51,257 nucleotides of DNA, from positions 1-51,257 of the forward strand of contig CAIFEY010000019.1 of NCBI GenBank assembly GCA_903789635.1, written 5' to 3'. Positions 15,503-39,633 of the stretch are shown here, piece after piece. Position 1 is the stretch's first letter. Each line of letters begins with the position of its first letter. The DNA is from an uncultured Eubacteriaceae bacterium. Lineage in GTDB: Bacteria > Bacillota > Clostridia > Peptostreptococcales > Anaerovoracaceae. Below the pieces are notes generated by a model that was not told where the DNA came from, did not search any database, and saw nothing but the letters and a program-made list of their open reading frames with translations. Made by a program: the position numbers and the translations under genes.

Positions 15503-15860
15503 CCCCGTTTCCGTTCCCCCTTCTTACTTACAAAAAAATTATTACCGAAACAAATAGATAATAGATAGAAATAAACCCGCGGCGGAGCCCTCGCCGCCAT
15601 TAATCACTTACCGTAAGCTTACCCCACTCTGCGGATTCCGGCAACCGCGTCCCCGACGGTTCATGCGTCCGTCCCCGTCTATCCCTCACCCCTCCGGTAT
15701 ACAGAATACCAATTGGCCTCCCGCACGGTTGAAAAAATATTTAATTCGGTATATTATATATATTGTGGAATTGTCGCGCAATAATAATCGAATTCGGAAT
15801 TTATTTCGAATTTTTTTATTGCAGAATGTATTTTACCATGAAAAGAAAGGACGATATCAA

Positions 15861-18509
15861 ATGTTGAGAAAGAACAAGTTTCTGATCACACTGCTGTCGA
15901 TTCTCATGGCGATCGCCATGATGCCGGCCGCAGCTTTTGCGGTGGAGGAGGCACCGAAAGAAAGTACAGAACCATACACGGAATGGAGCGCTGCCAGCAC
16001 CAAGCCGACCAGCGGACACTACAAACTGACCAATGACCTGACCGTCCAATGCTTTACGGTGAGCGGAAATCTGACGATCGACCTGAACGGGCATACGCTC
16101 ACAAAAGCCTTTATAAGCAATATCATGTTCACCGTCGAAGATGGCGGCAGCCTGACCATCGAGGACAGCTCGCCAGGTAAGACCGGCCAGATTATTTCCA
16201 GTAATTCTACGGTCATCAACGTATCCGGCAGCGGAGCCTTCACGATGACCGGCGGCACGATTAAAGGCGGCGGCACTGCTCCTGCGATAAAGACGACCTC
16301 ACCGAACGTAACGATTACCGGTGGAACCATTGAGAACTATTCCACCAAAAATTATGATTCCGCAGTCGCACTGAGAGTTAAAGTTCCTGACAGCTCCGAT
16401 AATGCGGTACAGATCTCGAACGCTAAACTGACCGCATCCAATAAGGCTCGGGAAGCTTTATCCATCTCAAGCGGAAAGGTTAATCTATCTGGCTGCGAGA
16501 TCACAAAAAAAGGCGACTTGGGTTATATCGCAGAAAGTTCGGGTGCCGTAACCTTTACCAACTGCACCATCTCTAATGACACAGCCAACCCCTTGTCGAC
16601 CGGCGTCATGATCGACGGAGGCAGCGCAGATTTCAATGGCGGCAGCATTGCCATCACCTCCTCCGACTACTCGTTATCATGTGCCCTCAAGATCAAGAAT
16701 TCGACGGTATCCTCTGATGCAGTCATTTCCGCCACCGGTTCCGGTGGTTCTTCCTCGGCTGTCTATATAAGCGGCGGAACATTCACGATGATCGGAGGGT
16801 CGATCAAGTCGGAGCAGGTTGGAATAATAACGGACTCTTCCCCGCAGGGGAAGTCTGCAAATTCCATCAATATAAAAGGCGGAACGATTTCTTCCAAAGG
16901 AGCAGCCATATTTACTACACAGCCAATTGCTACGGAAATCAATATTTCCCCGAGTGAAAACAATGCGGTATTCGTAGATCCAGACAGTCTGCTGTGGAAA
17001 ACGACCCCATTTGTTGATACTGATGATGTTCAGTATAAGATCTCCGGCGGCTTCTTCGCCGTGGATCCAACATCGGTGAACTTAATAGACTCATCAGACC
17101 CATCTCTCGCGACGCTGAACATCTCCGGAAAGGACTACTACGCCGTCGGTGCGGGTTCCGTCAAAGCCGCCCTCACCGGGAAATTCAGCACAGACGACAT
17201 CCCGGCGTTCGACGCTGAGAAGGACAGCCTGACGCTGACCCACGGCAGCATGGAGCTGACGGACATCCCAGACCTCACCGCGGCGAACAGTTCCGACAAC
17301 GACGGCACGTTCATCGTCGACGGCCAGAGCATCCCGGTCGGCGAGTCCGCCTACGTCCACAACCTGGAGCACGTCGACGCGAAAGCCGCAACCTGCACCG
17401 AGGACAGAAATATCGAGTACTGGCGGTGCAGGACCTGCGGGAAAAAGTACTCTGACGCCGGCGCCCAGGACGAGATCAAGCCCTCCGATGATGTAAACGG
17501 TATCAACGATCCGCTCGTGATTAAGGCGGCCGGCCACAAGTGGAGCGGCCCGGAATGGACCTGGTCCGACGACCATCAGTCCGCGTCCGCCGCATTCACC
17601 TGCGAGAATGAGAGCGACCCGAGCCGCACAGAGACCGTCGACGCAGAGGTGACCGGCACCGTAACCAAGGAAGCCGGCGCGTACAGCAAGGGCGAGAAGA
17701 CCTACACGGCCACGGTGAACTTTGGCGGCAAAGACTACACAGACCAGTACATTGAGGAAATCCCTGCCAAGGGAGCCCCTGCGGTCATCACGATCATCGA
17801 CGACTCGAGCGACACGGGCAAGGACAATCCGGACAATAACAAGGACAACACCAAGGACGACGCCGACAGCACGAACACCGGCGAAAACGACAACACGAAC
17901 ACCAGCCCGAACGGCAGCGACGAGGTTCCGACGGTGACGGGCACGATTTTGCCGACGGCGGCCGTGAAATCCGGCTCCGTGCAGAAGCTGACCTGGAACG
18001 CGGTACAGAACGCGGACGGTTACTACGTCTACGCCGCACGCGCGGGCAAATCCCTGAAGAAGGGCGCTGACGTCTCCGCCTCCGGGAAGCTCACCTACAC
18101 CGCGAAGAGCCTGACCGCCGGGAAGACCTACAAGTTCCGGATCGACGCGTACTGCATCGTCGCCGGAGAGAAGACGGTCGTCAAGAAGAGCCCGCTGATC
18201 CGCTCGCTCGCCGGAAACACCTCGTCCAAGTACACGAACGTCAAGTCCGTCAAGTCCGTCAAGGCTTCCAAACACAGTGTTTCCCTCTCCCGCGGAAAGA
18301 AATACACCGTCAAGGCCAAGCTCTACAAGTACAACAAGAAGCGTTCCTTCCTGCCGAACGCCGCGAAGCTCCGCTACTTAAGCAGCAACACACGCGTCGC
18401 GACCGTCAGCAGGAAAGGCAAGGTCACCGCAAAGAAATCCGGCAGGGCAACCATCTACGTCATCGCCTCTAACGGCAAGCGTGACAAGGTGAAGGTCACC
18501 GTGAAATAA
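15861..18509 (+). CDS. Large secreted surface protein: beta-helix, Cys motif, Fn3-like and Ig-like domains
   Basis: An 882-residue exported protein. A signal peptide (1-27, ending MMPAAAFA) is followed by a repetitive region (about 50-400) full of TITGGTI and GGT-type turns, typical of a right-handed parallel beta-helix. Next is a segment with CTEDRNIEYWRCRTCGKKY (about 512-530), common in Firmicute surface proteins, then a Trp-rich domain (GHKWSGPEWTWSDD, about 558-635), an Asp/Asn-rich linker (650-690), an Fn3-like domain (about 695-785) and a C-terminal Big2-like domain ending KSGRATIYVIASNGK. No LPXTG anchor is seen. The ATG at 15861 has AAAGGA upstream; the frame is open 66 codons further but this start begins the signal peptide. 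The last three domains recur in the convergent gene at 18796-19698. Confidence 0.88.
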   Translation: MLRKNKFLITLLSILMAIAMMPAAAFAVEEAPKESTEPYTEWSAASTKPTSGHYKLTNDLTVQCFTVSGNLTIDLNGHTLTKAFISNIMFTVEDGGSLTIEDSSPGKTGQIISSNSTVINVSGSGAFTMTGGTIKGGGTAPAIKTTSPNVTITGGTIENYSTKNYDSAVALRVKVPDSSDNAVQISNAKLTASNKAREALSISSGKVNLSGCEITKKGDLGYIAESSGAVTFTNCTISNDTANPLSTGVMIDGGSADFNGGSIAITSSDYSLSCALKIKNSTVSSDAVISATGSGGSSSAVYISGGTFTMIGGSIKSEQVGIITDSSPQGKSANSINIKGGTISSKGAAIFTTQPIATEINISPSENNAVFVDPDSLLWKTTPFVDTDDVQYKISGGFFAVDPTSVNLIDSSDPSLATLNISGKDYYAVGAGSVKAALTGKFSTDDIPAFDAEKDSLTLTHGSMELTDIPDLTAANSSDNDGTFIVDGQSIPVGESAYVHNLEHVDAKAATCTEDRNIEYWRCRTCGKKYSDAGAQDEIKPSDDVNGINDPLVIKAAGHKWSGPEWTWSDDHQSASAAFTCENESDPSRTETVDAEVTGTVTKEAGAYSKGEKTYTATVNFGGKDYTDQYIEEIPAKGAPAVITIIDDSSDTGKDNPDNNKDNTKDDADSTNTGENDNTNTSPNGSDEVPTVTGTILPTAAVKSGSVQKLTWNAVQNADGYYVYAARAGKSLKKGADVSASGKLTYTAKSLTAGKTYKFRIDAYCIVAGEKTVVKKSPLIRSLAGNTSSKYTNVKSVKSVKASKHSVSLSRGKKYTVKAKLYKYNKKRSFLPNAAKLRYLSSNTRVATVSRKGKVTAKKSGRATIYVIASNGKRDKVKVTVK

Positions 18510-18795: not shown

Positions 18796-19698
18796 CTATC
18801 TTACCGTCACCCTGATCCTGTCGCTCGCGCCGTTGATCCCAATCACGTAGACCGCGGCCGTCCCGGAGGACTTGGCCGTGATCGTGCCGCTCTTGGAGAC
18901 CGTCGCGACAGCCTCGTTGCAGGAGAGGTAGCGGAGTCTGGACGCGTTCGGCAGGTAGGCGAGTCCGCCGTAAACCTTCTTCACCGTCGCGTGAACGGTG
19001 TACGTCCCGCCCTGCTTCAGGGAGAGCGTGTGCTTTCCGGTGCATACGGATTTCACGTCCGTGTACTTGGAAGACTTTCCGCCCGCGATCGCGTAGGCCG
19101 TGACGCTCTTTCTGACGATCTGCTTCTCGCCGCCTACGTTGCGGTAAGCCGCGACGCGGTACTGGTAAACTTTCCCAGTTTTCAGCCCCTTCACCGTGCA
19201 GGAGCGGGTCTGAAAGGAGGCTCGCTCGGCGGCCAGTTTCAGCGATTTTCCGGCACGGCCCGCGTAAACGAGGTATCCGTCGATGTTGCTCAGCGGGGTC
19301 CATGTGATCTTCTGGGCGGTTCTGCCCTTTGCCGAAACCTTAGGAACCAGCGCACCCTCAATGTCGCCGCGCTCCGCCGGGTTGACCGGCGTGTTGCAGA
19401 CATACGTCCGGCCGTTGAACTCGACCGTCGCGGAGGCGTTCAGCGCCGTGCGGGTGACCGCGGCCTGCAGCGTCACGATCTGAGAGCAGTCGTCTTTACA
19501 GACAAAGGTAGCCGTGCACGTCCCGTCGTCCGCCCAGTTCCAGACCGGGTCGCACCACGCGTGCTGATGGGCATGCGTGTCCGACGCGTCGGTTCGCACC
19601 GGTCCCGCTCCCGTCTGCACGGGATCCGCGAACACCGCCGCCGGCATCATGGCCATCGCGACCGCAGCAGCCGCGATTATGGAAAGCCACATCTTCAT
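18796..19698 (-). CDS. Secreted protein, shortened paralogue of the neighbouring surface protein
   Basis: A 300-residue exported protein with a signal peptide (1-24, ending MMPAAVFA). It has the same order of final domains as the neighbour ending at 18509: a Trp-rich domain (HAWCDPVWNWADDG, then TATFVCKDDC and FNGRTYVCN, about 45-112), an Fn3-like domain (KITWTPLSNIDGYLVYAGRAGKS, about 118-205) and a Big2-like C-terminus (SSKYTDVKSV, LPNASRLRYLS, about 208-300). It lacks the beta-helix and acidic linker. The ATG at 19698 has GAGGAG about eight bases upstream. The two genes face each other across one terminator, which points to an inverted duplication followed by loss or gain of the helix part. 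The ligand is unknown. Confidence 0.85.
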   Translation of the reverse strand: MKMWLSIIAAAAVAMAMMPAAVFADPVQTGAGPVRTDASDTHAHQHAWCDPVWNWADDGTCTATFVCKDDCSQIVTLQAAVTRTALNASATVEFNGRTYVCNTPVNPAERGDIEGALVPKVSAKGRTAQKITWTPLSNIDGYLVYAGRAGKSLKLAAERASFQTRSCTVKGLKTGKVYQYRVAAYRNVGGEKQIVRKSVTAYAIAGGKSSKYTDVKSVCTGKHTLSLKQGGTYTVHATVKKVYGGLAYLPNASRLRYLSCNEAVATVSKSGTITAKSSGTAAVYVIGINGASDRIRVTVR

Positions 19699-19900: not shown

Positions 19901-20587
19901 TTAATCGTCGCTGCCGCGCGTCAGGATCACCAGCCTGAGCAGCTGCAGGATTACAGCGAACAGCGCGGCGACGTACGTCAGCGCAGCAGCCTTCAGCACC
20001 TTAGTGGCCGCGTCCATCTCAGGGCCGAATAAAATTTGTCTCCCCTGAAGGATCGCGAGCGCCCGCCTGGAGGCGTTGATCTCGACCGGCAGGGTGATCA
20101 GCTGGAACAGCACGACGAACCCGAACAGCAGCACGCCGATGCGCGCGAGCCCGAGCTGCCCCAGGACGATGCCGAGGATGATGATCGGCCAGGAGATCAT
20201 CGACCCAAAGTTCGCGATCGGCACGGAGACCGCCCGCAGCTTCAGCGGCAGATAGCCGACCTTATGCTGGATCGCGTGACCGCACTCGTGCGCCGCGACG
20301 CCCAGGGCCGCGACCGACGTCGAACCGTAGACCGAGTCGGACAGGCGCAGCACCTTCTCGTTCGGCGAGTAGTGATCCGTCAGATTACCGCTGACGCGCT
20401 CGATCCGAACGTCGTTGATTCCCGCCCCCTGCATGATCATCATCGCACAGTCCTGCGCTGTGATCCGCCGCGCGTTATACACGGTCTGATACCTTTTGAA
20501 CGTCCGGTTGACGTTCGCCGACGCAATCGCGCTGATGATCGCGCCGATGATGACCAGGATATACGTTCCATCCCACCAATACCACAT
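19901..20587 (-). CDS. YugP-like membrane zinc metallopeptidase
   Basis: A 228-residue membrane protein of the neutral zinc metallopeptidase 2 family. A first hydrophobic helix (about 8-27) is followed by a cytoplasmic or external domain with the zinc-binding motif VAAHECGHAIQH (HExxH type, about residues 97-108). Three more hydrophobic segments follow, and the typical LITLPVEINASRRAL supplies a further conserved acid. The length agrees with the family. The ATG at 20587 has AAGGAG seven bases upstream. The biological substrate of this family is not settled. A broken partial copy of its 3' half lies 230 bases upstream at 20818-20929. Confidence 0.92.
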   Translation of the reverse strand: MWYWWDGTYILVIIGAIISAIASANVNRTFKRYQTVYNARRITAQDCAMMIMQGAGINDVRIERVSGNLTDHYSPNEKVLRLSDSVYGSTSVAALGVAAHECGHAIQHKVGYLPLKLRAVSVPIANFGSMISWPIIILGIVLGQLGLARIGVLLFGFVVLFQLITLPVEINASRRALAILQGRQILFGPEMDAATKVLKAAALTYVAALFAVILQLLRLVILTRGSDD

Positions 20588-22228: not shown

Positions 22229-23758
22229 CTACTGACGCTTCGCCTGGTTCAGATCTTCCTCGGTGATCGTTCGGAATTCCGATTCCGATACACCGTCCAT
22301 TCCGATGATTCTGCCCGCCTGCGCCTGCACCACGCGTTCAAAATAGTTGCGCACGCCCCTCGCGTTCCCGAACAGTTCGTCGTTTTCCATCTTCTTGAAA
22401 TAACCGAGCGCAGCGCCCACGGCCTCCTTTGGAAGAATGAATGCTTTCTTGCTGCAGAGCGATGTAAAGATCTCAAGCATCTCATCTGCAGTGTAGTTCG
22501 GGAATTCGATGTACTTATTGAACCTCGACTGCAGTCCCGGATTAGTCTGGATGAACTTTCCCATCTCATCCGTGTATCCCGCGATGATGACGATCAGGTT
22601 GCCTCGGTTATCCTCCATGCCCTTTACCAGGGCATCGACGGCTTCCCTGCCATAGCTGTCATCGTTTTTCGACGTTGTCAAAGAATACGCCTCATCGATA
22701 AACAGGATGCCGCCGACTGCCTCCTTGATGACCTGCTCCGTCTTCAGGGCAGTCTGTCCCTGGTAAGCCGCGACCAGGCCCGCGCGGTCCGTCTCGATCA
22801 GCTGACCCTTGGTGACGACACCTAGTGCCTTGTACAGCTTCGCCATGATCCTCGCAACCGTCGTCTTTCCCGTTCCCGGCTGACCGGTAAACACCATGTG
22901 CTGAGAGACCTCCAGTTCCGGCAGGCCTTTCTTAATGCGCATCGAGTTAATCTTCAGCAGGTTCACGTTGGACCGGACCTCCTGCTTGACGCTGTTCAGA
23001 CCGATCAGATCGTCCAGTTCACGCAGCGCTCCTGCAAGCTCCTCATTGTCCTCGTCGATCGTAATTTCATCCTCCAGGCGGCCAGATCCCGTGCGCTTCT
23101 TTCCATTCTTCCGCTTCGGCTTTTCAGAAGGGGAACTCTCCCTGCCGTCCGTCTCCAGATCGTCCGGTGCTTCAGCCTTCGTCTCCTCAGCTTCCTTCTT
23201 CTCCTTCTTCTTTCCTGCGGTCCTGCGCTTCGTCTGCCTGCGGCCGCCGCGCAGCTCTGTAAGCGTCTGCGTGATGATCCTGCTCTCGTCCTCGGAAACC
23301 TGGTCATCGATGGCAGCAAAGGAATTCAGGATCGTCTGCAGCAGCCGGACCGTCTTCAGCGCCGCGCTGCTGTCCCGCTTCCCGATCCACTGCATGAACG
23401 CCGGGACGCCTTCCTGGAAGAATTTTCCACCTTCGTCGTTAAATTTCTCGACCGTCAGCGATTTCATGAAAGGACGGTAGCCGCGCGTCCTGTCACAAAG
23501 CTCATCGAATCCGTCCGGGAGAGAGATAATGAAATCCTTCTCCTCATCCGTCAAGTCTCCGTCCGCCACAGCGATCTTCAGCATGATCCCCTGCAGGAAC
23601 AGGTCCAGGTCACATTCGACATCGGTTACGGACGCCCATCCTTCTGCGACAGGATCGTCGTCCGGATCCTCGTACAGATTCTCAATAATCTTTGAGATCT
23701 TCAGGTACGCGTCGTACGCATCATCAAACAATTCTTTCCTTCTATCATCTAAAATCAT
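22229..23758 (-). CDS. AAA+ ATPase of the CbbX/SpoVK type with TerB-like N-terminal domain
   Basis: A 509-residue cytosolic ATPase. Residues about 50-165 look like a TerB-type helical domain with two acidic repeats (KIAVADGDLTDEEKDFI and AAIDDQVSEDESRII). A highly charged, lysine/glutamate-rich linker follows (170-245), then a CbbX-type AAA+ module (246-509) with Walker A GQPGTGKT (292-299), Walker B GGILFIDEAY (349-358) and a probable arginine finger in SRFNKYIEF. CbbX-type ATPases remodel protein complexes by pulling on a terminus. The ATG at 23758 has GGGAGAG at good spacing and the gene begins 20 bases after the Hsp70 stop codon, so it is the last gene of the chaperone cassette. It could be the disaggregase or unfoldase partner of that Hsp70; this is inferred from position. 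Confidence 0.9.
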   Translation of the reverse strand: MILDDRRKELFDDAYDAYLKISKIIENLYEDPDDDPVAEGWASVTDVECDLDLFLQGIMLKIAVADGDLTDEEKDFIISLPDGFDELCDRTRGYRPFMKSLTVEKFNDEGGKFFQEGVPAFMQWIGKRDSSAALKTVRLLQTILNSFAAIDDQVSEDESRIITQTLTELRGGRRQTKRRTAGKKKEKKEAEETKAEAPDDLETDGRESSPSEKPKRKNGKKRTGSGRLEDEITIDEDNEELAGALRELDDLIGLNSVKQEVRSNVNLLKINSMRIKKGLPELEVSQHMVFTGQPGTGKTTVARIMAKLYKALGVVTKGQLIETDRAGLVAAYQGQTALKTEQVIKEAVGGILFIDEAYSLTTSKNDDSYGREAVDALVKGMEDNRGNLIVIIAGYTDEMGKFIQTNPGLQSRFNKYIEFPNYTADEMLEIFTSLCSKKAFILPKEAVGAALGYFKKMENDELFGNARGVRNYFERVVQAQAGRIIGMDGVSESEFRTITEEDLNQAKRQ

Positions 23759-23778
23759 CGTTGCTCTCCCTCAGCATG

Positions 23779-26283
23779 CTATCTCGTCAAATCGGCTCCA
23801 AACGCGGCAATCGAATCGGTCCCGTCATCAGGAAGCAGATCCATCAGCTGGAAGACCGCGGTACCAAGCTGCTGAATGTCTTTGTCATTGATCACCTTAT
23901 ATGCCTGCCGTCTCCAGTACGCCGCCTTCGCATAATCCGTGTATGCACATTCCGTCGTGTCGAGGCCCATGGTAAAGAATTCACTCAGCCAGGTGAAATT
24001 TCCCGTCCTCGCCTGGAAACCGAGCGTACTCATCTTCCTGGCTACGTAATCCTTCTCATCCTCGCCCTGCGCACTGCTGTACGCCAGCTTCAGCTTCTCC
24101 ATCTCGGCCTTCTGGCTGTCCGTTCCCCAGTCCAGGACACTCTCCTCCGCCCTGGAGACCTTCTCCTCCCTGGCCTTGTTCACCCTGGTCTTTTTCGAAT
24201 TCAGTTTCTTCCGGACGATGTTCGTCTCGATATCGTTGAAGCGGCTGATATACCCGTTCACGGCCTGATCATCGGCGTCGATCAGCCTGAAGACAGAGCT
24301 GTATCCGTTTTTTAATGTTTTGAGCGAATTCTCCAGGTCGGAAACCTCCACTCCCCTGCTCTTCATATCCGCCAAGCTGTCCTCCGACTGCTGAATTCTC
24401 TCCCTGATCGCGCTCATGTCCTCGGAGAGATCCACCTTTGCCTCCGCACGGAGCGTGTGCTCCGGAATCTCATATTCATAGTCTGGAATATATCCGCTCA
24501 CGTGGATCATACGGTCCTCGTCCTCCTCGATGCTGAGGTCGATCTCGGTCCCCTGAGGGATCTTCTGATTCATCGCATAAGAGTGGACAGTGATCTCGCC
24601 GGCGGAATGATTAGCCTCCGGGTTGATCGTGTTTTCGCCCTCCCAGATCTTGATCGTGATGCAGTCGTTCTTATCCGGGTCGATGTCGCGGGACAGCTTG
24701 AACGTGTCCTTCGCGGATGCCGGAAGCGGCGTATTCTTCTTAATCAGATGATAGAGGATGTCGTTGCCCGTGTCCGGGTCCTGGATCTGCACGCCGATGG
24801 ACATGGTCGCCGGCGGCGCCGAGGTCTTGAGCACGTTCTCCCTGTGTTTGATGACAAAGTCCGGATTTTCAATCGTGATATCACCGCCCCTGCTGTCACA
24901 GACGTAAACCCTGAAGTAATTGGTTTTTCCAACCTGCAGCATCACATCGACATCGAACAGCCCGTTCGTCTCATCCATGAGCTCCACCCAGCCGCTGGTC
25001 CAGTCCACACCGGAAAAGCTGTTCGTCGAGGATCCGTCAATCCTGATCTTGGAAACATTCACGTCGGCGATGTTGTCGACCTTTCCGATGACGTTGACTT
25101 TCTCCTTGGAAGAAATCGGATCGTAGGTCAGTGAGATCACCGCATGGTCATCGTTGGTCACCTTCACGTCTTCCTCGACATCGACCACGCTCGTTGAGGC
25201 ATAGATCGCCGCACCCGCGGCAACGACTGTCATCGGATTCAGCGTGCTGTCCAGCTCGGTTTGGAATTCCTCAGAAAGGCGTCTCCTGACAAGCGGGATG
25301 AACGTGCTTCCACCGACGAGCAGGATCTTATCCAGGTCTGACGCCTGAATTCCCGCGCCGCCAAGGGCTTTTCTAGCGATCTCGATGCTGCTCTCCACGG
25401 TTTCCGAGATCAGTGCTTCCAGCTCATCCCTGGTCACCTCGCACTCGAACTCGATCGGCTTACCATTATCGTCATCAATGTCAAAAATTTCCAATACCGA
25501 AGACTCGCGGCTGCTGAGTTCAATCTTGCAGCCCTCGCAGTCAAGCAGGATCTTGCGGACGAGCGACCTTCCGCCCGCCGTTGACTCGTCAAGCAGCCCG
25601 TCCACTGCGTATTCCTTCTTCAGTGCAGGCAGCACTGCCTGGTTATAGATCCTGCGGTCAATGTCGCTCCCGCCGAAGTAGTTGTCTCCCTCGCTGTTTT
25701 CCACGGTCAGGCGTCCGTCCTCTGTCGAAATGACCGCAACATCGAGCGTTCCGCCGCCATAGTCAAAGACCATCCAGTGCTTGTCCTTCGCATCCGGCTT
25801 TGCCCCGTAGGCAACGGCCGCCGCGATCGGCTCCTGGAGCAGAATGATGTTCTTGAAGCCGGCGAGCTTTCCCGCCTTGTTCGTCGCTTCGGACTGAAGC
25901 GTCTTAAACGCCGCAGGCACCGTGATGACTACATTCTCGATCGTCCTGTTCAGCCTCATCTCCGCATCATTGCGAAGCGCCTTCAGAATCTCTGCGGACA
26001 GCTCTTCCGGCGTCTTCTCCACGCCGGCGGATTCGAATCGGATGACCTTGCTGGTGCCCATCGCCCGCTTGAACTGGATCGCGAGATCCTCGACCTTCTG
26101 GGAATTGTAGGCTCTCTGCCCGATCAGCATCCTGCCCTTGCCGTTGATCAGGACCGCCGACGGGGTGACCTGCATCCGGTCCGCCTGGTTCTCGATGATC
26201 TCAAATCCGTGATCGTCGTCCGGAATGGCCAGGCACGAGTTGGTCGTCCCGAGGTCGATCCCGCAATCATAAAGCTTCTGCAT
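23779..26283 (-). CDS. Atypical Hsp70-family chaperone with inserted domain and long helical tail
   Basis: An 834-residue Hsp70, some 200 residues longer than DnaK. The ATPase domain (1 to about 365) is intact: GIDLGTTNSCLAI, VITVPAAF, VFDYGGGTLDVAVI and ILLVGGSTFIP. Instead of the usual DVLLLDVTPLSLGIE linker, about 110 residues of beta-rich sequence (about 380-490) intervene before a recognisable substrate-binding beta domain (about 493-605: MSIGVQIQDPDTG, LIKKNTPLPASAKDTF, IKIWEGEN, IPQGTEIDLSIEEDED). The C-terminus (612-834) is a long helical region, longer than the DnaK lid. The ATG at 26283 has AGGAGG seven bases upstream. Neighbours are a GrpE-like protein upstream and an AAA+ ATPase downstream. 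It probably handles a specific client set; no CIRCE element was seen. Confidence 0.93.
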   Translation of the reverse strand: MQKLYDCGIDLGTTNSCLAIPDDDHGFEIIENQADRMQVTPSAVLINGKGRMLIGQRAYNSQKVEDLAIQFKRAMGTSKVIRFESAGVEKTPEELSAEILKALRNDAEMRLNRTIENVVITVPAAFKTLQSEATNKAGKLAGFKNIILLQEPIAAAVAYGAKPDAKDKHWMVFDYGGGTLDVAVISTEDGRLTVENSEGDNYFGGSDIDRRIYNQAVLPALKKEYAVDGLLDESTAGGRSLVRKILLDCEGCKIELSSRESSVLEIFDIDDDNGKPIEFECEVTRDELEALISETVESSIEIARKALGGAGIQASDLDKILLVGGSTFIPLVRRRLSEEFQTELDSTLNPMTVVAAGAAIYASTSVVDVEEDVKVTNDDHAVISLTYDPISSKEKVNVIGKVDNIADVNVSKIRIDGSSTNSFSGVDWTSGWVELMDETNGLFDVDVMLQVGKTNYFRVYVCDSRGGDITIENPDFVIKHRENVLKTSAPPATMSIGVQIQDPDTGNDILYHLIKKNTPLPASAKDTFKLSRDIDPDKNDCITIKIWEGENTINPEANHSAGEITVHSYAMNQKIPQGTEIDLSIEEDEDRMIHVSGYIPDYEYEIPEHTLRAEAKVDLSEDMSAIRERIQQSEDSLADMKSRGVEVSDLENSLKTLKNGYSSVFRLIDADDQAVNGYISRFNDIETNIVRKKLNSKKTRVNKAREEKVSRAEESVLDWGTDSQKAEMEKLKLAYSSAQGEDEKDYVARKMSTLGFQARTGNFTWLSEFFTMGLDTTECAYTDYAKAAYWRRQAYKVINDKDIQQLGTAVFQLMDLLPDDGTDSIAAFGADLTR

Positions 26284-26351
26284 TTTCGTTCCTCCTGAAA
26301 ATTATTAACATTGCAATTATATACGCTCATGCACGTCCGAACCGTGCGTGG

Positions 26352-26840
26352 CTATTTCCGATGTTTCTTCCTTTTCGCCCTTCTCTTCCTTTTAACAAAA
26401 GGCCGATGTTCCGACTTCCTGGGCTTTGACGGCGGGAGCCGGACCTGGTTCACATCAGCTCGGAGTTCTCCGCCGGCATCAGCGTCTGCCTTGATTTCCG
26501 CATTCGGTTTAGGCTTATTCACGGAGGTTCCGAGGATGACACGCCCACGCTGAATGACGGCGCCATCCTGCTTGATGATCGGCGACGACGTCGCGGCGAT
26601 GATCAGATCGCTCTCGTCCGCATCCTCCGCCTCGTTATTTACGACCTCGATGGCAAGCCCCGGATCGAACGCCGCACCCACCGGATCGACGATTTCGATG
26701 TCGAAGGCCTCGAGGTATTTTTTGATCGACCGAAGCGCACTCTTAGCCGCCATCTTCCGCTCCGCCTCTAGGTTGTCCAGCCAGCGTTCCAGGCGCCACG
26801 CCGCAACCGCAAGGTCGGAAATATCAGCTTTCATTCCCAT
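26352..26840 (-). CDS. Small GrpE-like protein, likely nucleotide-exchange factor for the adjacent Hsp70
   Basis: A 162-residue protein. A short helical part (1-45) leads into a segment (about 47-105) that follows the GrpE head pattern: IEIVDPVGAAFDPGLAIEVV aligns with the family GxxFDPxxHEAV, and DGAVIQRGRVILG with GYxLxDRVxRPAxV. The histidine of the usual HEAV is isoleucine here and the long N-terminal helix of GrpE is shortened. A linker (106-135) and a very basic tail rich in K and R (about 139-162) follow, which could bind nucleic acid or ribosomes. The ATG at 26840 has GAGGAG upstream. Its place directly before the Hsp70 gene supports an exchange-factor role. The GrpE assignment is by pattern, not by strong identity. 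Confidence 0.7.
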   Translation of the reverse strand: MGMKADISDLAVAAWRLERWLDNLEAERKMAAKSALRSIKKYLEAFDIEIVDPVGAAFDPGLAIEVVNNEAEDADESDLIIAATSSPIIKQDGAVIQRGRVILGTSVNKPKPNAEIKADADAGGELRADVNQVRLPPSKPRKSEHRPFVKRKRRAKRKKHRK

Positions 26841-26860
26841 ATCAACATTCTCCTCAATAA

Positions 26861-29218
26861 CTAAATATCATAATCATCTTCCTGCCGTTCTCCCGAAACC
26901 GATACGTGACCGCTTTCGTCCAGCATGCCCTGGAATCGTTTCAGCTGATCGATCAGCCCCTCCAGTCGCTCTGCCGCAGCGACCGAACCCATCTGCGCGG
27001 CGTCCATGTGAAGATCAATCGCCTTATTGATGTCGGCTTTGACGCCAATGCCGTGCTCGTAACACAGGGCGAGATTCTCCGTGGCATCCGGGTTTCCCAT
27101 GCCGTGGGCGTTGCTGTAGCAGCGGAACGCCGCCTGATCGTTCTGCCTGACGACCCTGCCGGTCTGGTAGAAGACGCCGAGGCTGTTCATAGAATACTTG
27201 TTGCCTGCTTGCGCGCCCTTGACGTAGGCCTTGAAAGCGAGCCGATCATCCCTCTCGCGTCCGTTCCTTCCGTATCGGTAATCGTCGCCCAGGGAATCGA
27301 ATTCCTGACCGGGTTCCTCGGAATCCAGGTATTTCAACGCGCTCGTCCCGAGATCCTTGAACATCATCCTGATGTTCAGCTGCTCCTGCCTATTGCAGTA
27401 CGGGTAGTATTTATTCGCATAATAGACCGCATTCCACTTGTTCTCCGCGTTGCTTAAGGCGTACATCAGCCTGCCGGTCCCCATATGGTAGGCCTCTTCC
27501 AGCATCTCTCTGCGCACGGATTCTCCTTCCAGCATCGGCAGAAGCTGTTTCAGCATCTGCCCGCCCTTCTCCGCAAACGGCCTGCCCATCTCCATGAGCT
27601 CTGCAGAAGCCGATTCGGAGAGGTTTTGCAGGTTCCCGTAACTGGACACCTGCCTGTAGATCCTGTCCTTCTGCATCACGAACCATGCCGTGACAGAAGA
27701 TAGGAGCGAACCCCAGAGGTCGTCAAAGTTCTTCACACTCGCCTTATCCAGGCACTCGAGAATCCGGACCGTCCTTTCCACGTTTTCGGGACCGCACAGT
27801 TCCTGCACAGGGCGGAAAATCTCCGTAAGGAAGCTGTCTGTCAGCTCCTGCCCGCGCATCCTATGCTCCGATCCCTCGTGAAACCGGCTCTTCAGCCGTT
27901 CCTGTTCCTTCTCCTTGCTCATGCTGTTTGCGATGACGAACACCTGCGCCCAACGCCGCGGCTCAAGTACATCTGGGTCAAAAAACAAGGCATATAGGTA
28001 GTTGGCGAGGAACAGGTCATAACTGATGTCTGCCCTCTTCAAATGATAGATCTGCTTCAGATAAAACGGATTCTGCCAGAACGCACACGCCTCCCTGTCC
28101 GCGAACCAGAACCAACTGTACCTCATACTGCTCAGCTTCGGCAGGGCAGCCTGCATGAGGCTGACGTCCCGATCAGGCCCCGGAATCCCGTCAAGCACGA
28201 AGCTGCCGCGGTACGACGATTCCGCGTGCAGCCTTGCCAGCTTCTGCAGCTTGTCTAGCACCTCGCTGGCTTCCGTCCTCGTCGAGGTCACCGATATGCC
28301 GAGGATGAAGTACGGGTTGTCCGTGATGCACGACCACGCCTTCCTGAGCGCAAGGTCCGAAACTGCGCGGACATCCACGTTCCGCTTGCTGCGCTCCGCC
28401 TCTTCGCGGGCCTTGCGCTCTGCCTTTTCGCGAGCCCTGCGTTTCGCCTTTTCGACAGCCCTGAGTTCCGCCTCTTCCTGGGCCCTGCGCTCTGCCTCTT
28501 CCCGTGCTTTGCGTTTCGCCTCTACGCGGGCCCTGCGTTCCTCCTTTTTGCGTTCCTTGCTCTCCGCTTCCTCGCGTGCCTTTCGCTCTGCCTCCTCGCG
28601 GGCCTTCCGCTCCGCCTCTTCCCTGCGCTTGCGCTCCGCTTCTTCCCTGCGCTTGCGCTCCTCTTCCTCTATGCGCCTTTGTTCCTCTTCTTCCTTACGT
28701 CTACGCTCTTCTTCTATGCGTTTTCGCTCTTTCTCTGTTTCCTCCCTACCCTGATTTACCTCGCTTTCGAAGGCTTCATACTGCAAACTCTCCCAGCCAT
28801 CATCTTCTGCTTCCTGCTTCCTGAGCCTTTTTTCTTCTCGTGCCTTGTGCTCCGCCTCTTCGCGGGCCTTCTTCTCGGTTTCTCCGCGGGCTTTACGCTG
28901 CCACTCGTCAAGTACCCTGCGCTCTTTCTCAGCCGCTGCCTTGCGCTCCGCCTCCTCGCGGGCTTTGCGTTCTGCCGCCTCACGTGCCTTGCGCTCCTCT
29001 ACCTCACGTACTCTGCGCTCTGCCGCCTCGCGAATGCGCCGTGCCTCCGGATGGGCCGGATTGGCTGCGGTAATCTTCTCCCCGCCTTCCTGCCTTTCAA
29101 TCGATTGAAGCATCACACGGGCCGGAGCCATATCCAGCCACTTAGAAATCTCACCAATAGACTTTAACCGAAGCGGAAAAAACCAGGGACTGTCATGAAC
29201 ACCCTCATGGATGCGCAA
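26861..29218 (-). CDS. Coiled-coil protein with J-like segment and Sel1 repeats
   Basis: A 785-residue protein. Residues about 57-280 are an extreme charged coiled coil built of repeats such as REEAERKAREEAERK. At about 300-375, NPYFILGISVTSTRTEASEV followed by LQKLARLHAE resembles helices I-II of a J-domain (family YxxLGVxxxAxxxEIxxAYRKLAxxxHPD), but the HPD triplet is missing. A large helical region follows, with Sel1-like repeats near the end (about 659-740: AFKAYVKGAQAGNKYSMNSLG, split here as two half-repeats, then AFRCYSNAHGMGNPDATENLA). The frame opens with TTG at 29218 immediately next to GGAAGGA, so the start is uncertain; the first ATG in frame is at codon 30. It is the second gene of the cassette and may present clients to, or scaffold, the Hsp70. 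Confidence 0.85.
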   Translation of the reverse strand: MRIHEGVHDSPWFFPLRLKSIGEISKWLDMAPARVMLQSIERQEGGEKITAANPAHPEARRIREAAERRVREVEERKAREAAERKAREEAERKAAAEKERRVLDEWQRKARGETEKKAREEAEHKAREEKRLRKQEAEDDGWESLQYEAFESEVNQGREETEKERKRIEEERRRKEEEEQRRIEEEERKRREEAERKRREEAERKAREEAERKAREEAESKERKKEERRARVEAKRKAREEAERRAQEEAELRAVEKAKRRAREKAERKAREEAERSKRNVDVRAVSDLALRKAWSCITDNPYFILGISVTSTRTEASEVLDKLQKLARLHAESSYRGSFVLDGIPGPDRDVSLMQAALPKLSSMRYSWFWFADREACAFWQNPFYLKQIYHLKRADISYDLFLANYLYALFFDPDVLEPRRWAQVFVIANSMSKEKEQERLKSRFHEGSEHRMRGQELTDSFLTEIFRPVQELCGPENVERTVRILECLDKASVKNFDDLWGSLLSSVTAWFVMQKDRIYRQVSSYGNLQNLSESASAELMEMGRPFAEKGGQMLKQLLPMLEGESVRREMLEEAYHMGTGRLMYALSNAENKWNAVYYANKYYPYCNRQEQLNIRMMFKDLGTSALKYLDSEEPGQEFDSLGDDYRYGRNGRERDDRLAFKAYVKGAQAGNKYSMNSLGVFYQTGRVVRQNDQAAFRCYSNAHGMGNPDATENLALCYEHGIGVKADINKAIDLHMDAAQMGSVAAAERLEGLIDQLKRFQGMLDESGHVSVSGERQEDDYDI

Positions 29219-29224
29219 TCCTTC

Positions 29225-29728
29225 CTAGATCGAATCACTCTTGTCCGTCTGAACGCGGAACTTATCAACCTGATAGCTCGCCTTCGACCAGTCTGTCATG
29301 GTAACCTTCCCATTAAACACATACCGGTCCCCATAAAGTATTAGATCAGACGTCACTGCAGTATTCTCGTCGGGGAAAGTCATCATTCCTACAGATAATG
29401 TCTTCATCGAATCATCGGATTTCCGGGCAACCAGTGCCCCGTACGACTGCAGCTGCCGCCGGACTAAGCCCAGGTCTCCCTCGTTTTTCAGGATAAACCA
29501 CGGGGTCTGGAATCCCACCCCACGAAAGGAAATCACGGGGTTGTGAGACTCCCCTAAGAAAAACGGAATCGTCCACTGGTCCGTGATGCAGCAGGTGTTC
29601 TTCCAGTCGATTTCATATCGCCACCCATCAAATTCATAAGCATCCGGATACAAGAACAAAGTCGATTTTATCTGATTGTTTCCGTCCCTGACCCTGACTC
29701 TGACCGCACAGTCCTCCGTATTCGCCAT
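29225..29728 (-). CDS. Hypothetical protein, two similar beta-rich halves; first gene of the Hsp70 cassette
   Basis: A 167-residue soluble protein that I do not recognise. Its two halves resemble each other: STLFLYPDAYEFDGWRYEIDW (about 23-43, split across the repeat core) and SDLILYGDRYVFNGKVTMTDW (about 125-145) share the pattern LxLYxDxYxFxGxxxxxDW. This looks like a duplicated PH- or GRAM-like beta fold, a guess from pattern only. The ATG at 29728 has GGGGAG about 12 bases upstream. Its stop codon lies six bases before the next gene, so it is translationally close to the coiled-coil protein. It probably serves the same machine, perhaps for membrane or client recognition. Confidence 0.7.
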   Translation of the reverse strand: MANTEDCAVRVRVRDGNNQIKSTLFLYPDAYEFDGWRYEIDWKNTCCITDQWTIPFFLGESHNPVISFRGVGFQTPWFILKNEGDLGLVRRQLQSYGALVARKSDDSMKTLSVGMMTFPDENTAVTSDLILYGDRYVFNGKVTMTDWSKASYQVDKFRVQTDKSDSI

Positions 29729-38136: not shown

Positions 38137-38142
38137 CATAAG

Positions 38143-38215
38143 TGCTCAGACTCGGAATTGAACCAAGGACACGGGGATTTTCAGTCCCCTGCTCTACCTA
38201 CTGAGCTATCTGAGC
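38143..38215 (-). tRNA. tRNA-Phe (GAA)
   Basis: A full cloverleaf: acceptor GCTCAGA/TCTGAGC, anticodon loop CTGAAAA with GAA, T-loop TTCAATT. Last gene of the array. CCA is not encoded. Confidence 0.97.
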
Positions 38216-38236
38216 ATAATGCTGTAAAGGTGAAAA

Positions 38237-38312
38237 TGGTGGGCCATCATGGGTTTGAACCAAGGACCTGCCGGTTATGAGCCGGATGCTCTTACCGCTG
38301 AGCTAATGGCCC
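38237..38312 (-). tRNA. tRNA with CAT anticodon (Met or Ile2)
   Basis: Acceptor GGGCCAT/ATGGCCC, anticodon loop CTCATAA, discriminator A, CCA encoded. The CAT anticodon may be methionine (elongator) or, if modified to lysidine, isoleucine; it does not look like an initiator, since the first pair is a normal G-C. Confidence 0.93.
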
Positions 38313-38322
38313 ATAAAGATAA

Positions 38323-38399
38323 TGGTCGGGGTGGCAGGATTTGAACCCGCGGCCCACTGGTCCCAAACCAGTTGCGCTACCAAACTGCGCTACACCCCG
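38323..38399 (-). tRNA. tRNA-Pro (TGG)
   Basis: Acceptor CGGGGTG/CACCCCG, anticodon loop TTTGGGA, discriminator A, CCA encoded. Confidence 0.97.
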
Positions 38400-38467
38400 T
38401 AAAAATTTCCGGCTGCTGATCATGTATTTTTAAAAATAACGGATAAATGTTCCTAAAAAAGATGGAA

Positions 38468-38540
38468 CAGGGGCAGAAGGATTTGAACCCTCGACACGTG
38501 GTTTTGGAGACCACTGCTCTACCAACTGAGCTATACCCCT
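38468..38540 (-). tRNA. tRNA-Trp (CCA)
   Basis: Acceptor AGGGGTA/TGCCCCT, anticodon loop CTCCAAA, discriminator G. The 3' CCA is not encoded. Confidence 0.97.
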
Positions 38541-38550
38541 ATATTAAAAA

Positions 38551-38640
38551 CGGAGAAGGCGAGATTCGAACTCGCGCGGCCCTAATACGAACCCTAACGG
38601 TTTAGCAAACCGTCCTCTTCAGCCACTTGAGTACTTCTCC
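38551..38640 (-). tRNA. tRNA-Ser (GCT)
   Basis: Acceptor GGAGAAG/CTTCTCC, anticodon GCT in TTGCTAA, and the long variable arm typical of serine tRNAs. CCA is not encoded. Confidence 0.97.
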
Positions 38641-38692
38641 ATAACATGGCTTACGTGCAAAGCTTATATAACTTTCATCCTGGTGAAGATGA

Positions 38693-38778
<86 letters not shown>

Positions 38779-38804
38779 ATGTGGGAACTTACCCTGTTAG
38801 GTTT

Positions 38805-38880
38805 TGGTGACCCATCCGAGATTCGAACTCGGGACACCTTGATTAAAAGTCAAGTGCTCTACCACCTGAGCTAATGGGTC
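38805..38880 (-). tRNA. tRNA-Lys (TTT)
   Basis: Acceptor GACCCAT/ATGGGTC, anticodon loop CTTTTAA, discriminator A, CCA encoded. Confidence 0.97.
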
Positions 38881-38885
38881 ATGCT

Positions 38886-38957
38886 CTGGGGTAGCAGGAA
38901 TCGAACCTTCGTATGAGGGAGTCAAAGTCCCTTGCCTTACCACTTGGCTATACCCCA
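38886..38957 (-). tRNA. tRNA-Gln (TTG)
   Basis: Acceptor TGGGGTA/TACCCCA beginning with the U-A pair usual for glutamine tRNA, anticodon loop CTTTGAC. CCA is not encoded. Confidence 0.97.
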
Positions 38958-38980
38958 CTGAACCCCGGGTATAAAAATAA

Positions 38981-39054
38981 TGAGCCCTCGGAGATTCGAA
39001 CTCCGGACACACGGCTTAGAAGGCCGTTGCTCTATCCAGCTGAGCTAAGAGCCC
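38981..39054 (-). tRNA. tRNA-Arg (TCT)
   Basis: Acceptor GGGCTCT pairs with AGGGCTC through two G-U pairs; anticodon loop CTTCTAA with TCT. CCA is not encoded. Confidence 0.96.
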
Positions 39055-39061
39055 ATAAAAA

Positions 39062-39135
<74 letters not shown>

Positions 39136-39142
39136 ATAAAAT

Positions 39143-39217
39143 TGGAGCGGAAGACGAGATTCGAACTCGCGACCCCCGCCTTGGCAAGGCGGTGCTCTAC
39201 CCCTGAGCCACTTCCGC
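39143..39217 (-). tRNA. tRNA-Gly (GCC)
   Basis: Acceptor GCGGAAG/CTTCCGC, anticodon loop TTGCCAA, discriminator T, CCA encoded. It lies eight bases from the TCC glycine gene. Confidence 0.97.
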
Positions 39218-39223
39218 ATAGAA

Positions 39224-39305
39224 TCGAGGGAGATGGATTCGAACCATCGTAAGCTCAGCTAACGGATTTACAGTCCGCCCCCTTTAGCCACTCGGGCATC
39301 CCTCG
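39224..39305 (-). tRNA. tRNA-Tyr (GTA)
   Basis: Acceptor CGAGGGA/TCCCTCG, anticodon loop CTGTAAA, long variable arm as usual for bacterial tyrosine tRNA. CCA is not encoded. Confidence 0.95.
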
Positions 39306-39339
39306 ACATGATTAAATTGTAAGCATTCACCTGAATGAA

Positions 39340-39414
39340 TGGAGCTGGCGGGGGGAATCGAACCCTCAACCTGCTGATTACAAATCAGCTGCTCTACCGT
39401 TGAGCCACGCCAGC
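39340..39414 (-). tRNA. tRNA-Thr (TGT)
   Basis: Acceptor GCTGGCG/CGCCAGC, anticodon loop TTTGTAA, discriminator T, CCA encoded. Confidence 0.97.
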
Positions 39415-39420
39415 ATAAAT

Positions 39421-39497
39421 TGGCGACCAAGACCGGGTTCGAACCGGTGACCTCCAGCGTGACAGGCTGGCATTCTAACCAACTGAACTACTTGGCC
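39421..39497 (-). tRNA. tRNA-Asp (GTC)
   Basis: Acceptor GGCCAAG/CTTGGTC with one G-U pair, anticodon loop CTGTCAC, discriminator G, CCA encoded. Confidence 0.97.
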
Positions 39498-39557
39498 GTA
39501 TGCTTGGATCCACCCGTTGACACTGCATTGGTCAGGAATGATGAATCAAGTGTAAAA

Positions 39558-39633
39558 TGGTGGGCGCTATAGGGCTCGAACCTATGACCTCCTGCTTGTA
39601 AGGCAGATGCTCTCCCAGCTGAGCTAAGCGCCC
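39558..39633 (-). tRNA. tRNA-Val (TAC)
   Basis: Acceptor GGGCGCT/AGCGCCC, anticodon loop CTTACAA, discriminator A, CCA encoded. First gene of the array. Confidence 0.97.

Follow-up and report, generated by a model that had tools for sequence, protein, structure and literature searches.

We analyzed a cassette of Hsp70-centered genes on contig CAIFEY010000019.1 of an uncultured Eubacteriaceae bacterium; it spans positions 22229–29728 of the minus strand, and throughout "the window" denotes the full stretch of 51,257 nt. The cassette encodes an Hsp70, a truncated GrpE (hereafter mini-GrpE), an AAA+ ATPase of the CbbX/SpoVK class, and a scaffold protein with a coiled coil, a J-like segment, and Sel1 repeats. 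It is very probably a second Hsp70 machine that exists beside the DnaK machine of its host. As to what this machine is for, we lean towards a mobile conflict system built around Hsp70, most likely directed against phages and distinct from the DnaK machine of the host. This reading is the least strained, because the machine is conserved and self-contained, is patchy inside a group yet reaches distant phyla, rides on phage-like contigs, plasmids, and a Tn7-like element, and in several relatives adjoins defense genes. This mobility and this defense-gene context are visible only through relatives of the window copy, and go beyond an earlier description of the locus made from its letters alone (the sequence-only reading).

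The cassette consists of 5 open reading frames (ORFs) on the minus strand, with intergenic gaps of 6, 20, 68, and 20 bases (Table 1). The sequence-only reading gave these ORFs, their coordinates, and their spacing correctly, but its count of 5 closely spaced genes does not stand. Specifically, the first 2 ORFs share one frame, with one TAG plus 2 codons between them, and alignments show that the homologous region is a single ORF of 747–774 amino acids in 4 relatives (L006, L007, L009, and L030; here and below, L numbers denote loci and G numbers genomes). Five separate genes are thus ruled out, and the locus is 4 genes, one of them interrupted, at least in the current assembly. The in-frame TAG sits within the second of 2 similar beta-rich repeats, and the repeat continues past the stop; the "two-repeat small protein" once listed as a gene of its own is the N-terminus of the next gene, and this short ORF has no Pfam or NCBIfam match at E-values up to 1. 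General recoding of TAG is unlikely, because all 5 ORFs terminate in TAG, a count that covers the cassette ORFs. Apart from the small protein, the earlier domain calls remain, i.e. an AAA protein of the CbbX/SpoVK class, an Hsp70, a remote GrpE, and a Sel1 protein.

Table 1. Genes of the cassette and a nearby metallopeptidase gene, with positions in the window.
Feature	Position	Strand	Support
Scaffold, N-terminal part: 167 codons, 1.5 copies of a beta-rich repeat, ends in the in-frame TAG	29225..29728	-	Repeats align with the N-terminus of L006, L007, L009, and L030
Scaffold, main part: 785 amino acids from TTG; coiled coil, J-like segment without HPD, helical region, Sel1 repeats	26861..29218	-	Pfam Sel1 1.6e-10
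Mini-GrpE: short helical start and GrpE beta domain, candidate nucleotide-exchange factor	26352..26840	-	Profile matches to GrpE
Hsp70, 834 amino acids: nucleotide-binding domain ~1-365, inserted beta domain ~383-480, beta part of substrate-binding domain ~496-611, predicted helical lid 619-815	23779..26283	-	Pfam HSP70 3.4e-74, AlphaFold2 model
CbbX/SpoVK-class AAA+ ATPase, 509 amino acids	22229..23758	-	AAA 1.7e-18, AAA_lid_6 1.4e-14, spore_V_K 3.4e-82
Zn_peptidase_2 metallopeptidase, possible accessory	19901..20587	-	Pfam 1.3e-86

The Hsp70, earlier described as enlarged, has the architecture of DnaK plus an inserted beta domain. The phosphate, lysine, and adenosine motifs of its nucleotide-binding domain (NBD) are intact (IDLGTTNS, FKRAMG, LLQEP, DYGGGTLD, and VGGST) and fall in invariant columns of the alignment. 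A profile built from the C-terminal half of 16 relatives matches the beta part of the substrate-binding domain (SBD-beta) of the host DnaK; aligned with hhalign to residues 356–520 of that protein, SBD-beta scores 40.1, whereas the best of 80 controls (shuffles and unrelated fragments) reaches 20.6. About 105 additional residues of beta structure separate the NBD from the SBD, no direct short hydrophobic linker joins the two, and the interdomain linker of DnaK aligns at about residue 483 of the window protein, with VLKTSAPP. An AlphaFold2 (AF2) model from a 14-sequence alignment (predicted local distance difference test, pLDDT, 82.3; predicted template modeling score, pTM, 0.71) comprises the NBD, the beta domain, SBD-beta, and a long helical part whose helices are predicted to take the position of the lid. 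A Foldseek search of the PDB with this model returns DnaK entries as best matches (E = 3.5e-39).

The protein called GrpE-like in the sequence-only reading is a GrpE homolog by its beta domain. The Pfam GrpE model reaches it at E = 0.0099, below the cut-off, and a profile of 18 mini-GrpE sequences finds GrpE 4ani as its best match among 177,635 PDB sequences (E = 0.0018). In hhalign, mini-GrpE and the beta domain of the host GrpE score 38.5 over 62 aligned columns, above all 200 controls (maximum 20.4). The C-terminal beta domain, through which GrpE contacts the NBD of Hsp70, is therefore present, whereas the long N-terminal dimerization helix of ordinary GrpE is, judged by length only, missing; some 40–60 residues stand ahead of the beta domain in the alignment. 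Evolutionary distances among Hsp70s and among mini-GrpEs correlate closely (r = 0.95, 29 pairs; reached by 0 of 999 permutations), which argues for joint inheritance of the 2 genes and is not by itself a sign of contact.

The AAA+ ATPase has both the AAA core and AAA_lid_6, with spore_V_K as its best NCBIfam match. CbbX, SpoVK, and EccA are its closest class, yet it stays below all 3 equivalog cut-offs, with 275 of 423 bits for SpoVK, 244 of 459 for CbbX, and 245 of 467 for EccA. Of the earlier label "TerB/CbbX-type", the CbbX/SpoVK class is retained but the TerB part is weak. The Pfam TerB model gives E = 0.0038 on the N-terminal region, below the cut-off, and this N-terminus shows no profile match to the TerB-like genes of Bacteroidota relatives; a TerB domain is thus unsupported by profile comparison, and the fold is TerB-like at most. 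ClpB and other Hsp100 proteins have 2 AAA modules. The window protein has a single AAA domain, the double module of the ClpB/Hsp100 type being absent, and given its class it is not the ClpB-like counterpart that the sequence-only reading implied. A different AAA subfamily, with an uncharacterized N-terminus, replaces it in Pseudomonadota, G336, G595 (second copy), G743, and L031. Of 7 further AAA proteins scanned, 4 carry a protein kinase domain fused to the AAA (Pkinase, E = 7.9e-39 to 2.4e-22); they come from the Bacteroidota loci L068 and L074–L076, and a simple pattern finds both kinase catalytic motifs in only one of these fusions. Separate TerB-like genes also lie beside L069, L074, L075, and L076, 2 of them above and 2 below the Pfam cut-off.

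In the scaffold family, a J-like segment that starts with NP(Y/F)xxLG, or a near variant, is found in 24 companion proteins (pulled by this motif, near-duplicates included), and the HPD motif is absent from the segment of the window protein and from all 24 of these. PF00226 gave no match to the window protein in a search of its own genome. The J-like profile from Bacillota and Bacteroidota shows a weak likeness to DnaJ, i.e. a score of 27.1 compared with a maximum of 21.9 in 200 controls, over only 25 columns. The companion profile from Pseudomonadota gives no sequence signal against DnaJ, which leaves a J-domain without profile support there, and the 2 companion profiles match each other (score 33.9, E = 6.7e-6, with no control run). 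An AF2 model of scaffold residues 281–785 (pLDDT 81.5) has a Sel1 fold, and its helix order is compatible with a J-domain; Sel1 repeats filled the match lists of a structure search with this model, so that the search is neutral on a J-domain fold and shows nothing either way.

The Hsp70s carry a matching change. An arginine that stands 4 residues before the glutamate of QEP/NEP in the host DnaK, and which we take to be DnaK R167, the contact of the HPD aspartate of J-proteins, is replaced in 34 of 34 readable Hsp70 ORFs (36 were listed, duplicates included, and 2 were unreadable). Because the J-like protein lacks HPD and the Hsp70s lack the J-contact arginine, the canonical J step is probably absent, and its loss on both sides suggests a rewired contact. 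The J-like role assigned to the scaffold hence keeps a weak DnaJ likeness in the Bacillota/Bacteroidota set, but is weakened by both missing contacts. Partners also vary among cassettes. A peptidoglycan-binding protein is a partner in Pseudomonadota (Pfam PG_binding_1, 1.5e-15). Ahead of the scaffold gene, 4 close relatives encode a conserved zinc-ribbon protein of about 500 amino acids (L006 5037–6563, L007 706–2223, L009 5762–7210, and L030 5481–7070).

The host genome carries its own chaperones. On contig C32, dnaK, a gene with a GrpE motif, and dnaJ stand in a row, i.e. a normal grpE-dnaK-dnaJ cluster (the GrpE label comes from the motif and not from a family scan), and an ORF ahead of this cluster, read by eye, is presumably hrcA.

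The cassette is more than a chance arrangement, because its gene order recurs in distant relatives. We counted recurrence over 34 loci, leaving out L013 (the same gene as L078) and L032 (the same Tn7-like element as L022); the loci are partly dependent, with L029 close to L036 and L033 close to L034. The partial cassette L037 and the unannotated L038 stand outside the counts, L039–L043 are the same contigs as L025–L029, and 5 of 13 plasmid matches, the weak matches L014–L021, G398, and the fragment L051 were outside the analysis. Mini-GrpE lies directly upstream of Hsp70 in 32 of the 34 loci, 31 by script and L031 by coordinates; in the latter, mini-GrpE runs into the beginning of the Hsp70 ORF as called, which made it fail the distance test. 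The 2 misses, L028 and L074, are contig ends with 2 and 86 bases upstream, so that mini-GrpE is beside Hsp70 wherever the contig extends upstream. A J-like companion occurs within 9 kb of Hsp70 in 28 loci, some (e.g. L035, L066, and L078) matched by whole-protein profile and not by motif, and an AAA gene is directly downstream in 22, the contigs of L008, L010, and L011 ending too early to tell. The mini-GrpE profile was iterated on these 34 loci, and the companion profiles were built partly from them.

The co-occurrence across species that the sequence-only reading had named as support is therefore found. Its converse, Hsp70 genes without the other members, is also seen in part: 12 of the 34 loci have no downstream AAA (3 at contig ends) and 6 have no J-like companion (1 at a contig end), with mini-GrpE as the constant member. 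The conserved order, together with GrpE and SBD homologies above 200 and 80 controls, respectively, bears out the central proposal, namely a parallel Hsp70 machine that is complete in itself and has remote versions of the partners.

The cassette is rare and its distribution is scattered. Within the family of the window genome it is present in 1 of 197 genomes, i.e. the window's own, and within its phylum in 3 of 348 at E = 1e-8, own genome included and one of them weak. A Bacteroidota draw gave 12 of 296 genomes (center included), and an archaeal draw 1 of 196, which is the center itself. Among plasmids the count is 13 of 72,556 (the query's own included), among E. coli genomes 2 of 5426, one of them complete, and 7 distinct IMG/VR contigs carry relatives. 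The module is thus found in Bacillota, Bacteroidota, Pseudomonadota, an archaeon, plasmids, a Tn7-like element, and (pro)phage contigs. In the tree, which leaves out L008, L013, L032, and L033 (partial, duplicate, or broken), one clade holds the window copy, 3 Bacillota records, one Bacteroidota record, Methanoculleus, and 2 viral contigs. A second clade groups the Pseudomonadota copies from plasmids and E. coli with one copy each from Mogibacterium, the phylum of the window, and Bacteroidota. Phyla are mixed in this tree, and the cassette has therefore been transferred repeatedly.

The Mogibacterium genome G595 carries 2 cassettes of different clades, a window-type one (L009) and a Pseudomonadota-type one (L077, 8189–15085). 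In 2 plasmid copies the Hsp70 gene is broken (L033 6972–11374 and L032 7867–10364), one having an ISNCY transposase inside and the other being split into 2 ORFs.

Several relatives reside on mobile DNA. For example, L022 and L032 sit in the same Tn7-like element on 2 plasmids, and the plasmid-borne copies include L022–L024 and L033–L035. Phage genes surround 3 further copies: endolysin and integrase genes stand on either side of L030, tail genes adjoin L026, and L031 sits between tail and baseplate genes. Several also have defense genes as neighbors, including ZorA (Zorya) near L023, RdrB (RADAR) and a DptF fragment near L036, which is an E. coli chromosome copy, and GajA (4.5e-275) and GajB (9.2e-241) of Gabija with a type IIG restriction-modification (R-M) gene near L033. 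Weaker GajA/GajB-like genes are found near L035, Cas3e and Cas8e (type I-E CRISPR) near L078, HmaA (Hma) near L025, a type I methyltransferase near L075, and an annotated restriction endonuclease and methyltransferase near L034. At L068 (531–10533), a 1000-amino-acid protein with NACHT and FGE-sulfatase domains is encoded directly upstream, on the same strand, of a J-like/mini-GrpE/Hsp70/kinase-AAA cassette. Judged by annotation alone, 4 of 7 records (L023, L033, L034, and L036; not L022, L024, or L035) have a named defense or R-M gene close to the cassette. In control stretches from the other side of these 7 records, such a gene occurs in 1 (BREX), or in 2 when dcm/vsr is included. This excess is suggestive and is not proof. 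The recurrent location on mobile elements and beside defense genes holds for several relatives and not for the window copy; its presence in those relatives suggests a protein-folding machine turned into a defense system.

For the cycle, client, output, and antiviral role of such a system, we infer the following. The J-like/Sel1 scaffold would recognize a protein state linked to infection, such as a viral protein that is misfolded or under assembly, or a membrane complex that has been damaged, possibly through its variable ends, i.e. the beta-rich N-terminal repeats, the coiled coil, and, in L006, a DUF1883 C-terminus. It would then hand this client to the dedicated Hsp70, whose SBD would bind peptide and whose NBD would hydrolyze ATP, by a route that bypasses the HPD/arginine contact of DnaJ with DnaK. 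Mini-GrpE would exchange the nucleotide, and the AAA+ ATPase, ring-forming by class, may remodel the bound client or drive the output. The output itself could come from variable partners, e.g. the peptidoglycan-binding protein in Pseudomonadota, the kinase-AAA in one Bacteroidota clade, and the zinc-ribbon protein or a metallopeptidase near the window clade. In its fullest form, this would be the first immune system centered on a dedicated Hsp70, a mobile machine of 4 parts. Its J-like scaffold, lacking HPD, would sense viral proteins and load them on the machine's own Hsp70, mini-GrpE would reset it, and the AAA+ or kinase-AAA would fire the response, with the whole traded among bacteria, archaea, plasmids, and phages. 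We put this fuller form forward tentatively, as an idea that falls somewhat short of probable.

A number of observations weigh against a mobile defense role. Around the window copy, a Pfam scan of the 10 neighbors finds no recognized defense gene or phage structural gene, the G+C content is ordinary (0.557 for the cassette and 0.562 for the window), the zinc-ribbon gene of relatives is not adjacent, and the scaffold has an in-frame stop and is without the C-terminal region that is DUF1883 in L006. G+C consequently gives no signal of a recent insertion of the window cassette. Among relatives, none of the 50,697 INPHARED phage records has the cassette, and the Bacteroidota group L070–L073 has mini-GrpE and Hsp70 only, in seemingly ordinary chromosomal surroundings. 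No defense neighbor was seen on reading L006, L009, L066, and L077, whose flanks were not scanned, and no PADLOC model matched the tested Hsp70, mini-GrpE, and scaffold proteins, the only matches being general AAA and kinase ones. The neighbor genes scanned for Gabija, R-M, Cas, and HmaA at L033, L035, L078, L025, and L075 were picked by eye. The count near the cassette rises to 5 of 7 only by a PADLOC result for L035, and the control side had no PADLOC run, so that the comparison is small and uneven. Lastly, some of the proteins searched with the J-like and mini-GrpE profiles had themselves contributed to those profiles.

In Bacteroidota L070, L071, and L073, nearby opposite-strand ORFs share a short motif like SPEEIIRIEKQ, with 2 such ORFs in L070; the one that was tested has no Pfam match above the cut-off.

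The window copy may be damaged, because its scaffold gene carries an in-frame stop, and that it is a decaying and here nonfunctional remnant is a real, if doubtful, possibility, which is compatible with a conflict system in the rest of the family. The stop falls within the second repeat and TAG serves as the stop of all 5 ORFs; likewise, the DUF1883 region is missing, and the zinc-ribbon gene was not found in the window genome (with one relative's protein as query, in a search without a positive control). However, the other 3 genes are intact and the Hsp70 motifs conserved, the long downstream part of the scaffold could start from its TTG, and an isolated stop may reflect an error of assembly or be bypassed by readthrough. 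These 3 genes are 49–66% identical to their counterparts in L006, L007, and L009.

Alternatively, the machine could be an accessory to proteostasis, serving stress or a process of the cell envelope or membrane, spread by mobile elements as other accessory genes are, and without an antiviral role; the scaffold would bring a membrane client to Hsp70 and AAA. We consider this unlikely. The peptidoglycan-binding partner in Pseudomonadota, the Zn_peptidase_2 genes near the window and L030 copies, the pairing of mini-GrpE and Hsp70 alone in L070–L073, and the lack of a defense neighbor among the 10 scanned at the window are all in its favor, but it sits poorly with defense neighbors at several unrelated loci, with (pro)phage and Tn7-like cargo positions, and with a presence as sporadic as 1 of 197 genomes in the window's own family. 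It is quite improbable that the machine is a chaperone serving the mobile element itself, by folding or assembling the proteins of its virion, replication, or transfer. L026, L030, and L031 do adjoin phage genes (tail, endolysin, integrase, or baseplate), and L022–L024 and L033–L035 are on plasmids; yet copies also occur on the E. coli chromosome beside RdrB, beside HmaA, and beside type I-E cas genes, INPHARED has none, and related cassettes are found alike in phages, plasmids, and a Tn7-like element, which are not known to share assembly parts. A simple second copy of the DnaK-DnaJ-GrpE-ClpB disaggregase with general clients has all 4 role types present by position to recommend it, and is the least probable of these alternatives given a CbbX/SpoVK-class AAA with one AAA domain, the missing HPD and J-contact arginine, the beta domain inserted at the NBD-SBD junction, and a host that keeps normal chaperone genes; a five-role mirror of that machine is ruled out for the AAA and weakened for the J-protein.

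Compared with DnaK-DnaJ-GrpE (ClpB), the cassette shares an Hsp70 with NBD, SBD-beta, and a putative helical lid, a GrpE beta domain, an AAA+ protein, and a J-like protein, and differs in its inserted beta domain, an HPD-less J-like segment, the lack of the J-contact arginine, a truncated GrpE, and the class of its AAA. We recognized no paper describing this composition in the open literature, a search that left subscription papers, preprint servers, and supplements outside, and a term look-up in the main texts of PMC9122126 and PMC10121019 finds Hsp70, DnaK, chaperone, and GrpE absent.

The closest arrangement in print, as far as the parts consulted go, is the HSP70/GrpE/DnaJ theme of the GAP1-N2 GTPase systems, whose composition differs. 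As the second theme of these GTPase-centric systems, Kaur et al. (2020, PMC7159879) describe predicted conflict systems, chiefly of firmicutes and actinobacteria, in which HSP70 and GrpE genes are linked and accompanied by a DnaJ-domain or TPR protein. The likeness lies in linked HSP70, GrpE, and DnaJ-type genes within a predicted conflict system, and the FGS domain effectors of that paper are comparable to the FGE-sulfatase domain next to L068 (PMC7159879). By contrast, those systems center on GAP1-N2 and GTPases and have a DnaJ domain fused to FNIII repeats, and the main text does not mention CbbX (PMC7159879). The Pfam matches of the 10 window neighbors include no GAP1-N2 or GTPase, the GAP1 models not having been searched by name.

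Other defense systems resemble the cassette in single aspects. In CoCoNuT type IV restriction, CnuD Hsp70-like proteins with degenerate Walker A-like motifs are tied to McrB/McrC homologs (PMC11090510). An Hsp70-like NBD/SBD unit in a predicted defense operon is common to both, and extended CoCoNuT operons include SpoVK-family AAA proteins and kinases; the cassette differs by its intact ATPase motifs and its constant mini-GrpE, GrpE being unmentioned in the main text of that paper (PMC11090510). Neither the 10 window neighbors nor the cassette genes have a Pfam match to McrB/McrC. For bNACHT25, anti-phage sensing depends on host DnaJ, and the DnaJ-DnaK cycle was concluded to be necessary, according to the parts of that report consulted (PMC12169576). 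Sensing that depends on chaperones is shared with the mechanism suggested here, with the difference that bNACHT25 uses host chaperones and a NACHT protein (PMC12169576), whereas the cassette of the window and its relatives is a mobile chaperone machine in its own right.

If an Hsp70 machine is indeed carried as defense cargo, protein folding itself would become an immune readout, and the family would offer a natural Hsp70 whose contact with its J-protein is apparently rewired on both sides. Chaperones are host factors for phages. A testable set is at hand, since a Polaromonas plasmid (pPNAP01; L023, 7424–13459), one E. coli genome, and (pro)phage-like contigs carry complete cassettes.

The surroundings of the window copy hold some further genes. 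The Zn_peptidase_2 gene (YugP-type) is 69% identical to the copy that lies directly downstream of the AAA gene in the prophage-like L030, and 43–46% identical to the 7 same-genus copies compared. Since it is closer to the L030 copy than to those of its own genus, it probably arrived with the cassette; a formate/nitrite transporter gene on the plus strand stands between this gene and the cassette. An IS3-type integrase core lies about 6 kb from the cassette. A search for the empty site found no close ortholog of the radical SAM flank in the genus, the best other genome having 39% identity. Beyond the AAA gene, at a distance of about 2.5–6.6 kb, the window encodes 2 proteins with bacterial Ig-like features at 15663–18509 (Big_2) and 18796–19698 (fn3, with Big_2 just below the cut-off), and 15 tRNA genes are clustered on the minus strand at 38142–39633.

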